Source of the DNA: Salinisphaera sp. LB1
GTDB lineage: Bacteria; Pseudomonadota; Gammaproteobacteria; Nevskiales; Salinisphaeraceae
Assembly: GCF_003177035.1 (NCBI RefSeq)
Contig: NZ_CP029488.1
Coordinates: forward strand, 1,426,001 to 1,490,000
DNA length: 64,000 bases
Direction: 5' to 3'
Below, in pieces: positions 6,910 to 60,783 of the stretch; position 1 is the stretch's first letter, and each line of letters starts with the position of its first letter. The notes under the pieces were generated by a model that was given only the letters and a program-made list of their open reading frames with translations, was not told the origin of the DNA and did no database searches. Position numbers and translations under genes: made by a program.

Positions 6910-7815
6910 TCATGCCACTTTGGCAGACCCGGCGATTGTGTCATAGAAGTTGGCTTCAGCCTCGGCCGGCGGCATATCACCGATCGGCTCGAACAGCCGC
7001 TGATTATTGAACCAGTCGACCCAGTCCAGCACCGCGAACTCGACGGCGGCAAGGTGAGGCCACGGCCCGTCGTGCTGACGGATGACTTCCGTCTTGAACA
7101 GGCCGATCACGGTCTCGGCCAGCGCGTTATCGTATGAACTGCCGACGCGGCCGGCCGACGGGGTGATACCGACATCCGCCAGGCGTTCGCTATAGCGAAT
7201 TGACAGGTATTGCACCCCGCGGTCGGTGTGCTGAATCAGGCGCTGGCCGGGTTGCCGGTCATGGATGGCCTGCTCGAGCGCGTCGAGCACGAGGCCCGTG
7301 TTGGGGGCGCTCGAAACGCGCCAGCCGACAATGCGACGCGCGAACGCATCGATAACAAACGCTGCATAAACAAAGCCGTGCCGGGTCGGGCAGTACGTAA
7401 AATCGGCCACCCAGAGCCGATCGGGTCGGGCGGCTGTGAAGTCACGCTGGACGTGGTCGCCCGGGCTCGGTTGGTTGGGGTCGGAAGTGGTCGTTTTCGG
7501 CGTGCGCCCGCGCACAGCGCCTTGCAAGCCCATCTGACGCATCAGACGCTCGACCGTGCACCGAGCCACCGACCAACCCTCACGCTGCAACTGCAGCCAG
7601 ACTTTGCGGGCGCCATAGACGCAACGATTGGCCTCCCAGACCTGCTGGATGGCGTCGCTCAAGACCCTCTCACGTCGGTCCCGCTTCGAACGGCGAGCCG
7701 GGTCGGTTTGCCGGGCCTTGGCGGCATAGTAGGTCGACGGTGCGATCGGCAGCACACGGCAGATCGGCCCGACACCGTAGACCCGGCGATAATCGTCGAT
7801 GAACGTCACCATCAC
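6910..7815 (-). CDS. IS3-family transposase OrfB (integrase domain)
   Basis: 301 residues with a complete DDE catalytic core: [20 protein letters not shown] (first D), [20 protein letters not shown] (second D) and [20 protein letters not shown] (E). The N-terminal HTH_21-like region includes [20 protein letters not shown]. It starts with GTG at 7815, overlapping the orfA stop by four bases (GTGA), so it is expressed by coupling or as an OrfAB frameshift fusion, as in other IS3 elements. All expected motifs are intact. Confidence 0.93.
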
Positions 7816-8132
7816 TTGTGTCGGCGGTCGAGCTCCGCCTGGGCAAAATAGGCCGAAGCCTTGCGCAGGATCTCATTGGCCCGTTTCAACTCACGGTTCT
7901 CACGCTCAAGCGCCTTGATGCGCTCGCGCTCTTCCGTGCTCTGGCCATTGCGCAGCCCGCGGTCCCGTTCGGCCTGGCGAACCCAACTGCGCAGCGTCTC
8001 GGGCGTACAGCCGATCTTGCCGGCGATCGAACCGATCGCCGCCCACTGCGAGCTGTAGTCCGCCTGATGCTCAAAGACCATGCGAACCGCTCGTTCACGG
8101 ACTTCCGGGGAATAAGGTTTCCGCTGTTTCAT
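7812..8132 (-). CDS. IS3-family transposase OrfA
   Basis: 106 residues: an N-terminal helix-turn-helix ([20 protein letters not shown]) followed by a leucine-zipper-like coiled coil ([20 protein letters not shown]) that ends in the family tail [14 protein letters not shown]. OrfA binds the terminal repeats and dimerises with OrfAB. It lies just inside the right inverted repeat, as expected for the promoter-proximal orf. Confidence 0.93.
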
Positions 8133-56231: not shown

Positions 56232-56852
56232 GTCGTTTCTGCTTCTTTGGGTGCATCATCAGGATATTTTGTCCGCAGATCGACGCAGATTCACGCAGAT
56301 GGCGGTCGGCTGATGCGTCGTTGCAGTCTTCGTGGCGCCGCGATTTCTAGCGCTGCCGATTCTGGGTGAAACAACGCGAAACGGTTCGACAGTCGGCATT
56401 AAGCGTCCTTGGAACAACGCGCCCATCGCCGATGGCGCCCCGGGCGGTTATGGCATCGAAACCATAACCGCCATCTGCGTTGATCTGCGGATAATGTAAC
56501 GAACGAAACCGCCGCAATAGGCGGACCGTCGTAGGCCTTCAGAGCGCTGCTGTCGCAATACGAACGGCGGTACTGAGAAAGCTGTGGCGCCCCGAAGGCC
56601 GCAACAACGCGCCAGCCGCCCGCCATCGGTGAAATCTGTGGATAACCTTTCAGGAACGAAGCCACCAACCGGCCCGGGCCCGGATAGCGTCAAACACCAC
56701 GACGACACGCCAACCGCCCGCCATCTGCGTGAATCTGCGCCGGTCTGCGGACAGGTTTTACAAGGAACGATGCCGTGCAAATGGACCCGAAGGCGTCGCG
56801 CTCTTAAAGTGTCGGTCGCACTCTTCGTATCGTGTTTCGCACGCATCTTGTC
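56232..56852. repeat. Non-coding lysA-polA region with four degenerate repeats and a perfect hairpin
   Basis: The motif family CCGCCATCTGCGTnAATCTG occurs four times: inverted at 56270-56309, direct at 56464-56494, 56615-56659 and 56712-56769. The last three are each followed within about 20 bases by a GAACGA box. A perfect 11-bp stem GGCGGTTATGG-catcgaaa-CCATAACCGCC lies at 56443-56472 and includes part of copy 2. No ORF with coding character is present. It resembles dispersed intergenic repeat DNA that has expanded locally. Confidence 0.65.
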
Positions 56853-59558
56853 ATGTCCGAATCCAATGCCCGTGGCCCGCTGATCCTCATCGACGGCTCG
56901 TCCTGGCTGTATCGCGCCTTTCACGTCCTGCCGCCGCTGACCAATGCCGAAGGCCAGCCGACCGGCGCGATCTATGGCATGACCAATATGCTGCGCAAGT
57001 TCCTGCGCGAATATGATTCGGATCGCATCGTCGTGGTCTTCGACCCGCGCGGGCCGACGTTCCGCAACGAACTGTTCGCCGACTACAAGGCCAACCGGCC
57101 GCCGGTGCCACCGGATCTGGCCGACCAGTTCGAGGGCATTCGCGACGTCATTCACGCCATGGGCCTGCCGATCGTGCAGATGGACGGCGTGGAGGCCGAC
57201 GATGTGATCGGCACGCTGGCGGTGCGTGAGCCCGGCCCGGTGGTGATTGTCACCGGCGACAAGGACATGGCCCAGCTCGTCAACGAGCGTGTCGTATTGC
57301 TCGACACCATGCAGGACAAGCGCACGGATGTGGCGCGTGTGCACGACAAGTTCGGCGTGGGGCCTGAGCTGATCACCGATTATCTGGCCCTGGTCGGCGA
57401 TACCTCCGACAACATTCCGGGGATCGACAAGGTTGGCCCCAAGACCGCCGTCAAGTGGCTGATCAATTACGGCAATCTCGCCGGCGTGATCGAGCATGCC
57501 GACGATATCGGCGGCAAGGTGGCCGAGAATCTGCGCGCCCGGCTCGATCAACTGCCGCTCTATCAGGATCTGGCGACGATCCGTACCGAACTGGATCTGG
57601 CCGGCCTTGCGGACGAGCTGACCCGCCGCGAACCGGATACCGAAGCCCTCGCCGCGTTGTTCCGCCGCTACGAGTTCAACAAGTTCCTGGAGGAACTGGA
57701 CGCACCGGCCGAAGCAGCCAACGGTGGCGATGCGCCGGGCGCGCCGGTCGATACGCACTACCACACCGTGCTGGATACCGATGCGCTCGAGGCCATGATG
57801 GCCAAACTCGAGGCCGCCGAACTGATCTGCGTGGATACCGAGACCGACGCCCTGTCGGCGATGCAGTCGAATCTGGTCGGGCTGTCGTTTGCGGTGACGC
57901 CCGGCGAGGCCTGGTATGTGCCGGTCGGCCACAATTATCTGGGCGCGCCGGACCAGCTGCCGATGAATATCGTGCTCGATCGCGTGCGCGGTGTGCTGGA
58001 GAATCCGGCCATCAGCAAGCTCGGCCAGCACATCAAGTACGACCTGAATGTACTCGCGCGCTACAACGTGCACCTCGCCGGCGCCGATCAGGACACCATG
58101 CTCGAATCCTATGTGCTGGATTCCACTGCCACGCGCCACGACATGGATTCGCTGGCCCAGAAGTATCTGGCGCGCACGACGACCAAGTTCGAGGAGGTGG
58201 CCGGCAAGGGCGCCAAGCAGGTCGGCTTCAACCAGGTCGCCCTGGATGTGGCCACGCCGTATGCCGCCGAGGACGCCGATGTCACGTTGCAGCTGCACCA
58301 GCTGCTGCATGCGCGTCTGGGCCAGACCGGCCGCCTGCTCGAACTGTATGAAACGGTCGAAATGCCGCTCATGCCGGTGCTCGCGCGCGTCGAGGCCAAC
58401 GGGGTGCTGGTCGACGACCAGTTGTTGAAGCGCGTGTCCGGCGAAATGGCCGAACGCATGATCGAGATCGAGCAGCAGGCCTTTGCGGCGGCGGGCGGCG
58501 AGTTCAACCTGGGCTCACCCGCCCAGCTCAAGGAAATTCTGTTCGACCGGTTGGAACTGCCGGTGATCCGCAAGACACCCAAGGGCGCGCCGTCGACCGC
58601 CGAAGACGTGCTGCGCGAACTGGCCGACAAGCACGCGCTGCCGGCGCATATCGTGGCCTGGCGTGAATTGTCCAAGCTGCGCTCGACCTACGCCGACAAG
58701 TTGCCGACACTGATCAACCCGGCCACCGGGCGAATCCATACCAGCTACCACCAGGCGGTGACGGCCACCGGGCGGCTGTCGTCATCCGACCCCAACCTGC
58801 AGAACATTCCCATCCGGACCGAAGCCGGACGCCGTATCCGCGAAGCCTTCATCGCCCCGCCCGGCTACAAGATCCTGGCGGTCGACTATTCCCAGATCGA
58901 ACTGCGCATCATGGCGCATCTGTCGGGTGATCCGGGGCTGCTTGCAGCCTTCAACGAACAGCGCGACGTGCACGCGGCAACGGCCAGCGAAGTGTTCGAT
59001 ACGCCGCTCGAGCAAGTGAGCGTCAACCAACGGCGCGCGGCCAAGGCGATCAATTTCGGCCTGATGTACGGCATGTCCGCCTATGGTCTGGCCAAACAAC
59101 TCGAACTGTCGCGCGAGGATGCGGGCGCTTATATTGATCGTTTTTTCGACCGCTTTGCCGGCGTGCATCGCTATATGGAACAAACGCGAGCTGCCGCCAA
59201 GGCCGATGGCTATGTTGAAACGCTGTTCGGACGTCGTCTTTATCTGCCCGAGATCAATGCGCGCAACGGCACCCGCCGCCAGGGGGCGGAGCGGGCCGCG
59301 ATCAACGCCCCGCTACAAGGCACAGCCGCCGATCTGATCAAAAAAGCGATGATCGAGGTCGATGCCTGGCTGCGAGAAACCGGCGAGGACGCGCGCATGA
59401 TCATGCAGGTACACGACGAACTGGTCTTCGAGGTGCCGGCAGCCGAGGGCGAGCGCCTGGGTAAGGCCATCGCCGATCGCATGAGCGCGGTCGCCGAGCT
59501 CGATGTGCCATTGATCGCCGAGGTCGGCATTGCGGACAACTGGCAGCAGGCGCACTGA
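56853..59558 (+). CDS. polA: DNA polymerase I
   Basis: About 901 residues from ATG 56853; an in-frame GTG at 56832 would add seven. The 5'-3' exonuclease domain (about 1-290) has VVFDPRGPTFRNELFADYKA and GVEADDVIGTLAV. The 3'-5' proofreading domain keeps ICVDTETDALSAMQ (DxE) and looks active. The polymerase domain has motif A KILAVDYSQIELRIMAHLSG, the O-helix RRAAKAINFGLMYGMSAYGL and motif C IMQVHDELVFEVP. It fills gaps and removes primers. A 130-bp gap follows before the small-RNA array. Confidence 0.98.
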   Translation: MSESNARGPLILIDGSSWLYRAFHVLPPLTNAEGQPTGAIYGMTNMLRKFLREYDSDRIVVVFDPRGPTFRNELFADYKANRPPVPPDLADQFEGIRDVIHAMGLPIVQMDGVEADDVIGTLAVREPGPVVIVTGDKDMAQLVNERVVLLDTMQDKRTDVARVHDKFGVGPELITDYLALVGDTSDNIPGIDKVGPKTAVKWLINYGNLAGVIEHADDIGGKVAENLRARLDQLPLYQDLATIRTELDLAGLADELTRREPDTEALAALFRRYEFNKFLEELDAPAEAANGGDAPGAPVDTHYHTVLDTDALEAMMAKLEAAELICVDTETDALSAMQSNLVGLSFAVTPGEAWYVPVGHNYLGAPDQLPMNIVLDRVRGVLENPAISKLGQHIKYDLNVLARYNVHLAGADQDTMLESYVLDSTATRHDMDSLAQKYLARTTTKFEEVAGKGAKQVGFNQVALDVATPYAAEDADVTLQLHQLLHARLGQTGRLLELYETVEMPLMPVLARVEANGVLVDDQLLKRVSGEMAERMIEIEQQAFAAAGGEFNLGSPAQLKEILFDRLELPVIRKTPKGAPSTAEDVLRELADKHALPAHIVAWRELSKLRSTYADKLPTLINPATGRIHTSYHQAVTATGRLSSSDPNLQNIPIRTEAGRRIREAFIAPPGYKILAVDYSQIELRIMAHLSGDPGLLAAFNEQRDVHAATASEVFDTPLEQVSVNQRRAAKAINFGLMYGMSAYGLAKQLELSREDAGAYIDRFFDRFAGVHRYMEQTRAAAKADGYVETLFGRRLYLPEINARNGTRRQGAERAAINAPLQGTAADLIKKAMIEVDAWLRETGEDARMIMQVHDELVFEVPAAEGERLGKAIADRMSAVAELDVPLIAEVGIADNWQQAH

Positions 59559-59726
59559 CAAGCCCGGCGAACCGGCGGAACAATTTGGCGCGTTTTTATG
59601 CGGCGATCCGCCCGCCTGAAAAAAATCGCATCGAATTTATCGAGCGATTACAGATGCTTGGAATTTTTTGAAAAAATTTTGGCCGCGGGCTGGAACTTGC
59701 CCGCCGGGGGCAGGGTCTTATTCCCT

Positions 59727-59845
59727 GCAAGCACATTGTTGCTTGCCCGCTTTTCTCCCTGAGCGGTAACCCCCAATCCGGTTTCCCCCAAGAACCGGAA
59801 TGCTTGCCCCGACGGTAATTCCCCCTGCCGTCGGGGCTTCTTTTT
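59727..59845 (+). ncRNA. Sibling sRNA, unit 1
   Basis: Promoter GGAACTT (59692-59698), 17-base spacer, TCTTA (59716-59720); start estimated at about 59727. Hairpin 1 is GCAAGCA-cattgt-TGCTTGC. Hairpin 2 is CCGCT-tttctccctg-AGCGG. Hairpin 3 is TCCGGTT-tcccccaag-AACCGGA. The terminator is GCCCCGACGG (59806-59815) with CCGTCGGGGC (59828-59837), then TTCTTTTT. Start site and length are inferred. Confidence 0.75.
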
Positions 59846-59963
59846 GTTCCACATTCTCGCGTCGGTCGCGACGATGCCCGCATCGAACGGTTTACGCGAC
59901 GAGGCGTTGAAAAAAATCCGGATTTATTTTGAAACTTTCCGGCCCGCCCGCAGTCTCAGCCCA

Positions 59964-60070
59964 TGTAAGCGAAACGCTTACCCGCTTTTCTCCCTGAGCG
60001 GTAATATCCGGTTCCCCCCCAAGACCGGATCCGCCCCGACGGTTTCCCCCGGCCGTCGGGGCATTTTTTT
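59964..60070 (+). ncRNA. Sibling sRNA, unit 2
   Basis: Promoter GAAACTT (59931-59937), 16-base spacer, TCTCA (59954-59958). Hairpin 1 is GTAAGCG-aaa-CGCTTAC, unrelated in sequence to that of unit 1 but of the same shape. Hairpin 2 is identical to the other units; hairpin 3 is ATCCGGT with ACCGGAT around a run of C. The terminator is GCCCCGACGG (60033-60042) with CCGTCGGGGC (60053-60062) and seven T. Confidence 0.78.
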
Positions 60071-60144
60071 GAGCACGTTCCGGCGCGCCGAATTTTTTTG
60101 CGAAGCGGCCGGAACTTCTGCGTTGCCCCGGCGTCTATAGTCTT

Positions 60145-60259
60145 GCAGGCCAAGCCGAGGCTGGACCTGCCCGCTTTTCTCCCTGAGCGGTAACATCCGG
60201 TTCCCCCCCAAGACCGGATCCGCCCCGACGGTTTCCCCCGACCGTCGGGGCATTTTTTT
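60145..60259 (+). ncRNA. Sibling sRNA, unit 3
   Basis: Promoter GGAACTT (60111-60117), 16-base spacer, TCTATA (60134-60139), a close match to the RpoE/AlgU consensus. Hairpin 1 is GCAGG...CCTGC with an inner CCA-GCC/GGC-TGG stem. Hairpins 2 and 3 are as in unit 2. Terminator 60222-60251 with the T-run to 60259. Confidence 0.8.
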
Positions 60260-60334
60260 GAGCGTGTTCCGGCGCGCCGAAAATTTTTTGCGAAGCGGCC
60301 GGAACTTCTGCGCAGCTCCGGCGTCTATAGTCTT

Positions 60335-60450
60335 GCAGGCCAAGCTGAGGCTGGACCTGCCCGCTTTTCTCCCTGAGCGGTAACATCCGGTTCCCCCCCC
60401 AAGACCGGATCCGCCCCGACGGTTTCCCCCGACCGTCGGGGCATTTTTTT
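60335..60450 (+). ncRNA. Sibling sRNA, unit 4
   Basis: Promoter GGAACTT (60301-60307), 16-base spacer, TCTATA (60324-60329). It is almost identical to unit 3. Differences include one base in hairpin 1, an extra C in the hairpin-3 loop and changes in the promoter spacer. Terminator 60413-60442 with the T-run to 60450. Confidence 0.8.
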
Positions 60451-60523
60451 GAGCGTGTTCCGGCGCGTCGAAATTTTTGCGAAGCGGCCGGAACTTCTGT
60501 GCGGCCCCGGCGTCTACAGTGCG

Positions 60524-60643
60524 GTAGGCCAAGCATAGGCTAGACCTGCCCCGCTTTTCTCCCTGAGCGGTAACATCCGTTCCCCTCCCCAGAGGCCGGA
60601 TTGATCGCCCTGGCGACGTTCCCCGCGTCGCCAGGGTTTTTTT
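60524..60643 (+). ncRNA. Sibling sRNA, unit 5
   Basis: Promoter GGAACTT (60490-60496), 16-base spacer, TCTACA (60513-60518). Hairpin 2 is unchanged. Hairpin 3 is shortened (ATCCG...CGGAT). The terminator has a different stem, CCCTGGCGACG (60608-60618) with CGTCGCCAGGG (60626-60636) and seven T, yet keeps a C-rich loop. The 140 bp between its end and engB shows no gene. Confidence 0.78.
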
Positions 60644-60783
60644 ATACCCTGGGCGTAACCCGCACTGCTTTTATCGCACAAGATGATCGTCGAGGTCGAC
60701 TCCTGACGCCGTTTAGCCGACAAGTGGTCGTTATGGCTCGATGAACGTACTGATCGACAACGGATCTCGGTCTGCGCGGCGGC

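Follow-up and report, generated by a model that had tools for sequence, protein, structure and literature searches.

Layout of the polA–engB gap

In Salinisphaera sp. LB1, whose genome is a single 4.14-Mb contig, the 1.2-kb gap between polA and the convergent engB/yihA gene is filled by five direct repeats with a period of ~190 bp, which span positions 59692–60643 of the window (the 64-kb stretch of DNA analysed here). Each repeat unit carries a promoter of the sigma-E type, a predicted small RNA (sRNA) of 107–121 nt and a terminator. The features are listed below, with the fold energy of each RNA expressed as a z-score relative to dinucleotide shuffles, and with its score under R1, a covariance model built from 46 Salinisphaera units.

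56832..59558, + strand: polA, upstream flank
59692..59720, + strand: unit 1 sigma-E-type promoter, GGAACTT ... GTCTTA
59726..59845, + strand: unit 1 predicted sRNA, start placed within a few nt; terminator stem 59806–59837; fold z −7.7; R1 112.6 bits
59931..59958, + strand: unit 2 promoter, GAAACTT ... GTCTCA
59964..60070, + strand: unit 2 predicted sRNA; terminator stem 60033–60062; fold z −6.7; R1 111.2 bits
60111..60138, + strand: unit 3 promoter, GGAACTT ... GTCTAT
60144..60259, + strand: unit 3 predicted sRNA; terminator stem 60222–60251; fold z −6.5; R1 103 bits
60301..60328, + strand: unit 4 promoter, GGAACTT ... GTCTAT
60334..60450, + strand: unit 4 predicted sRNA, recent duplicate of unit 3; terminator stem 60413–60442; fold z −5.9; R1 101.5 bits
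60490..60517, + strand: unit 5 promoter, GGAACTT ... GTCTAC
60523..60643, + strand: unit 5 predicted sRNA, most diverged copy; terminator stem 60607–60637; fold z −5.9; R1 84.4 bits
60784..61440, − strand: engB/yihA, convergent downstream flank

The original prediction of five tandem sibling units, each with its own promoter and terminator, is confirmed by the promoter boxes and by an independent scan that located 12–13-pair terminators at 59806, 60033, 60222, 60413 and 60607; the same scan found no sigma-70-like promoter inside the array. From −35 box to terminator, units 3 and 4 are identical at 145 of 149 positions, and the remaining pairs at 82–91% of aligned positions. An R1 search of the whole genome returned no convincing sixth copy, the next match scoring 20 bits versus 84–113 bits for the five. 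A protein-coding reading of the minus-strand open reading frames that cross the array was rejected in view of the covarying stems described below, and of unit lengths and spacings that are not multiples of three. Immediately after the last terminator (60644–60680) lies a CCCTGAGC/CCCTGGGCGTAACC-like stretch, which occupies the same place in three other loci (L005, L011, L015). Elsewhere in the window, an ALIL pseudoknot, a frameshift element of the kind usually carried by insertion sequences of the IS3 type, is found on the minus strand at 7738–7854 (109.7 bits, above the Rfam cut-off).

Promoters and the link to RpoE

The pattern G[GA]AACTT-N14-17-GTCT occurs five times on the two strands of the window, each time in the array, where 0.025 occurrences are expected under a first-order Markov model; the spacers between GGAACTT and TCT are 17, 16, 16, 16 and 16 nt for units 1–5. 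An exact search with a 24-mer of the RNA core retrieved 11 other loci, of which ten have Salinisphaera in their title, and the 12 Salinisphaera loci including the window hold 46 units, 2–6 per locus (in the two-unit locus, L013, the units lie near the end of an 8-kb stretch, and G078, the genome that contains this contig, shows four matches). All 46 units, which were chosen by their RNA core and not by their promoter, have G[GA]AAC-N17/18-GTC just upstream. Where the commoner spacing applies (40 units), the boxes are kept while the spacer is near random, the conservation of G, AAC and GTC in this set being partly due to the construction of the pattern, and a conserved AAAATTTTT tract precedes the −35 box by 12–20 nt.

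The genome encodes one RpoE match above the NCBIfam cut-off (282 bits) and three weaker ECF-type matches. Upstream of rpoE stands GAACTATTCCCGGTCGCCGCGGTCTATG, with the spacing of the array promoters and a reading (GAACTA...GGTCTATG) slightly unlike the GGAACTT of the array, and the reading frames that follow the gene look by eye like rseA and rseB. This promoter element lies ~121 nt before rpoE in all 14 Salinisphaera genomes examined (for the 13 besides LB1, the distance to the rpoE match is 118–127 nt); of three further genomes of the family, two have it. More broadly, the strict promoter precedes 57 of the 105 class-wide matches with enough upstream sequence, where 0.44 would be expected and reversed controls yield none; a single spacing is common to 51 of these 57. 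Among the half or so of class-wide members without the strict motif, a variant such as GAACTA or GAAACTT is common, and a few lack anything similar. The array promoters are thus, by sequence, of the RpoE/AlgU type that had been predicted, with the same element found at rpoE genes of the genus and conserved class-wide. Because the same promoter precedes rpoE in 14 of 14 Salinisphaera genomes, sigma-E control is well supported by sequence, and we regard control of the array by RpoE itself as highly probable. Exact genome-wide promoter patterns proved too narrow, missing four or all five of the array units, so that their single hits are uninformative on the size of the regulon.

Structure, distribution and named relatives of the RNA

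The predicted RNAs fold into four hairpins, the last of which is the 12–13-pair terminator with its T-run, and the fold energies of the five window units lie 5.9 to 7.7 SD below those of dinucleotide shuffles. Covariation was counted in two alignments sharing a structure of 26 pairs. In the genus alignment (A1, aligned by MAFFT with structure by RNAalifold, and not fitted to the model), 14 of 26 pairs changed on both sides, giving 74 cells compared with 17.7 after shuffling and at most 11 with the pairing partner slid. In the second (A2), made of 109 class-wide matches fitted to the model, so that its counts lean towards the structure, compensatory changes appear in 25 of 26 pairs, with 726 cells compared with 199 shuffled and at most 80 slid. 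The SL2 stem offers no evidence of covariation within the genus because it never varies there, and class-wide it both varies and covaries. Indeed, the SL2 hairpin is nearly identical across all 46 units, and its loop, UUCUCCCU, is invariant. Loops remain C-rich throughout the class, with CTCCC in SL2 (97/109), CCCC in SL3 (96/109) and CCCC in the terminator loop (84/109), and GGG occurs in none of the 109 SL2 loops.

The original prediction had proposed a covariance-model search of related genomes, and R1, whose E-values are rough, finds the family in the genus, the order and the class. Within the order, hits occur in 83 of 85 genomes, representing 21 of 21 genera; across the class, they occur in 132 of 369 sampled genomes, a figure that depends on the genomes drawn and on strict filters and is probably a lower bound. 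Of 44 order and class loci inspected by tblastn (L036–L079), all except L043, L050, L057 and L060 have polA, engB or both within ~1.5 kb. Within the genus, strong R1 matches amount to 3–6 copies per genome, one 81%-complete Salinisphaera genome giving no strong match, and outside it genomes mostly hold one or two copies, most often one, with some larger arrays (four units in L048). Copy number thus appears to have been raised in Salinisphaera, in line with the earlier description of the array as amplified. An Rfam scan of 40 order and class loci at gathering scores assigned two to sX13 and two to anti-hemB, and recovered no sRNA family in the other 36; the anti-hemB cut-off was passed by two class-wide members, L053 (adjacent to engB) and L158.

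Among named RNAs, sX13 of Xanthomonadaceae comes closest in sequence and structure, followed by anti-hemB. sX13 is a three-stem RNA with C-rich loops, encoded downstream of polA; it acts independently of Hfq and uses its C-loops to repress mRNAs that carry G-rich motifs near their start (PMC3771888), effects tested only in Xanthomonas; an hfq gene is present in the LB1 genome. It shares with the array its position, a similar length and C-rich hairpin loops including that of the terminator, and its SL1, ACAAGCGCAATGCTTGT, is nearly the Salinisphaera SL1 consensus. The relation is seen from both directions. In the class sample the sX13 model (RF02232) has two loci above threshold, in genomes G248 (116.7 bits) and G096 (103.2 bits), and R1 recovers both in place at 46 and 43 bits (genome E-values 3.1e-8 and 1.4e-7). 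Conversely, RF02232 matches a Salinisphaera unit in G080, the best of the genus, at 48.3 bits (E 7.4e-8), just short of its cut-off of 50, and the window units at 29.5–33.8 bits. Each of the two sX13 genomes has a second R1 match (G248:C1:926310-926409, 40.5 bits; G096:C22:263747-263876, 37.3 bits; loci L149 and L165), possibly an sX13 paralog away from polA. Where the two differ is in number and control, sX13 being described as one gene with constitutive expression (PMC3771888), whereas Salinisphaera carries 3–6 tandem copies with sigma-E-type promoters.

Of the Rfam models, anti-hemB (RF02837, Burkholderia RNA 7) scores highest on the window (32–36 bits, E 4e-6 to 5e-5), below its cut-off of 49.5 bits, and shares the CTCCCTGAGCGG hairpin and a similar terminator, although its Rfam model has three hairpins and the array units four. 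The earlier label of the array as ErsA-like holds for locus and promoter type, since ErsA (Pseudomon-1, RF01719) of Pseudomonas is located in the polA–engB gap (PMC8575079), is reported to be AlgU/sigma-22-dependent (PMC5819304) and has, by sequence, a sigma-22/RpoE-type promoter (GAACTT-N-GTCATA, read in L081, where polA was also found). For the RNA itself the match is only weak. In the proposed comparison with the ErsA Rfam model, the window units score no higher than 19.9 bits, where the cut-off is 50; RF01719 scores the G080 unit at 37.1 bits, R1 scores ErsA at 21.6 bits only, and kinship between the two would be a weak relation at best. Likewise, enterobacterial Spot 42 (spf) occupies the same polA–yihA/engB gap, as had been remarked, and this common locus is all that stands of the comparison, R1 giving no match at the E. 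coli K-12 locus at E-values up to 10. We therefore file the array as sX13-like, rather than as sX13 or ErsA, because it misses the cut-offs of both; judged by sequence, it belongs to an sX13-like sRNA family of the polA–engB gap, mostly missing from Rfam, and is an amplified member with promoters of the sigma-E type. In the open-licence literature we found no paper naming two of sX13, ErsA, anti-hemB and RF02837 and, among the matches listed by a non-restrictive search for Salinisphaera sRNAs, none on the genus, neither of which is proof of novelty.

Proposed action of the RNAs and the role of their copies

We consider it likely that the array comprises five separately transcribed tandem copies of one trans-acting, RpoE-controlled sRNA, a C-loop repressor whose copies add dosage. 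Envelope stress would release RpoE from its anti-sigma factor, whereupon it would fire all five GGAACTT-N-GTCT promoters together with its own gene, and transcription of each unit would end at its own terminator to yield RNAs of ~105–120 nt with four hairpins. The C-rich loops (UUCUCCCU in SL2, CCCC-type in SL3 and the terminator loop) would then pair with G-rich mRNA sites at or near the ribosome-binding site, mostly lowering translation of the target, as is known for sX13. Such pairing with G-rich start regions is fairly probable, supported by the conserved C-richness of the loops and by the sX13 precedent. Several copies would raise both the total amount of RNA and the speed of its accumulation, and units 1 and 5, whose SL1 and SL3 set them apart from the middle units, may have private targets as well. 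Shared targets and dosage are favoured because the SL2 loop is invariant in all units, and on balance we lean towards dosage as the main role of the copies. As to targets, a search confined to perfect 10-nt complements of the SL2 loop region returned seven genomic hits, of which five are the array itself, one (L222) does not lie at a start codon, and one immediately precedes the ATG of an acetyltransferase-like gene in L216 (identity judged by eye; start region TCAGGGAGAAAAGGATG), a plausible candidate and the sole target lead. A second candidate, hfq, which is a target of sX13 in Xanthomonas, was rejected, as its start region in LB1 has no G4 motif.

Two systems offer a precedent for parts of this scheme. 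In Listeria monocytogenes, the envelope-stress sRNAs LhrC1–5 also number five and carry C-rich motifs, their UCCC motifs binding a G-rich start region with copies that appear additive (PMC4132741); this likeness, one of copy number, stress and loop motif, concerns an unrelated bacterium in which control is by the LisRK two-component system and not by a sigma factor. Caulobacter GsrN is a C-loop sRNA controlled by a sigma factor, and confers dose-dependent stress protection (PMC5869019).

The copies need not be equivalent, and it is possible, though we think it unlikely, that the five diverged siblings each repress targets of their own through SL1, SL3 or the 5′ end, rather than contributing dosage. 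SL1 indeed differs between units 1, 2, 3/4 and 5, and unit 5 has a different SL3 and the lowest R1 score of the five. In a tree most of whose forks are weak, the first units of several species cluster together, and divergence is greatest in some of the terminal units. However, the near-identity of the SL2 hairpin in all 46 units speaks against this reading, copy number changes from 3 to 6 between species, and the middle units of Q1T1-3 are grouped by species. This grouping, together with the near-identity of units 3 and 4, is what recent duplication or gene conversion would give, and the pattern suits repeated events of this kind in the middle of the array. The same near-identity, and the tandem ~190-bp periodicity, could also be read as local expansion of a dispersed repeat or mobile palindrome (REP/BIME-like) without regulatory role, a reading to which we give almost no credence and which was rejected on the finding by R1 of the family at a single locus in the genome; moreover, the same locus is used across the class, the stems covary and the promoters are conserved.

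The sigma factor and the mode of action have likewise been weighed against other readings. The three further ECF-type matches, and the preference of the units for GGAACTT where the rpoE promoter of the same genome has GAACTA, would fit an ECF sigma factor of similar recognition sequence other than RpoE. We hold this to be improbable, given the same boxes and spacing before rpoE in every Salinisphaera genome examined and the AlgU/sigma-22 dependence reported for ErsA, which has the same locus and promoter type (PMC5819304). Even less probable, in our estimate, is a CsrB/RsmY-like sponge, in which the repeated loops would sequester an RNA-binding protein without pairing to mRNA. RNAs that act by titration typically have several similar stem-loops and exist in several copies, yet sponges of the CsrA/RsmA type expose GGA in their loops, whereas those of the array are C-rich and G-poor, as the absence of GGG from SL2 illustrates. 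The homolog sX13, in addition, works by C-loops on G-motifs (PMC3771888).

Beyond the preferred reading of the array as a dosage-adding RpoE-controlled repressor, we incline, with some reserve, to a common history in which the polA–engB gap of much of Gammaproteobacteria would be home to one ancestral C-loop sRNA under sigma-E control. The separately named fragments of this family would be sX13 and anti-hemB and, at a greater distance, ErsA; some lineages would have lost sigma-E control, and Salinisphaera would have amplified the gene to 3–6 copies, with dosage setting the strength of a non-coding envelope-stress response. If true, RNAs now filed as separate families would join as one class-wide sRNA locus tied to the envelope-stress sigma factor, most of whose members go unrecognised by Rfam (36 of 40 scanned loci), and the natural series of one to six copies at a fixed chromosomal place would provide a ready set for the study of sRNA dosage in a stress response.

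Two further observations concern individual loci. L006 (1–8000) bears the title Endozoicomonas sp. G2_2; its array is of the Salinisphaera type, and its polA shares 81% identity with that of the window. The title is probably a misnomer because the corresponding genome, G082, ranks in Salinisphaera. In S. hydrothermalis (L011, 4880–6180), units 2 and 3 of the array are split by ~1.4 kb containing a frame that by eye resembles a transposase.
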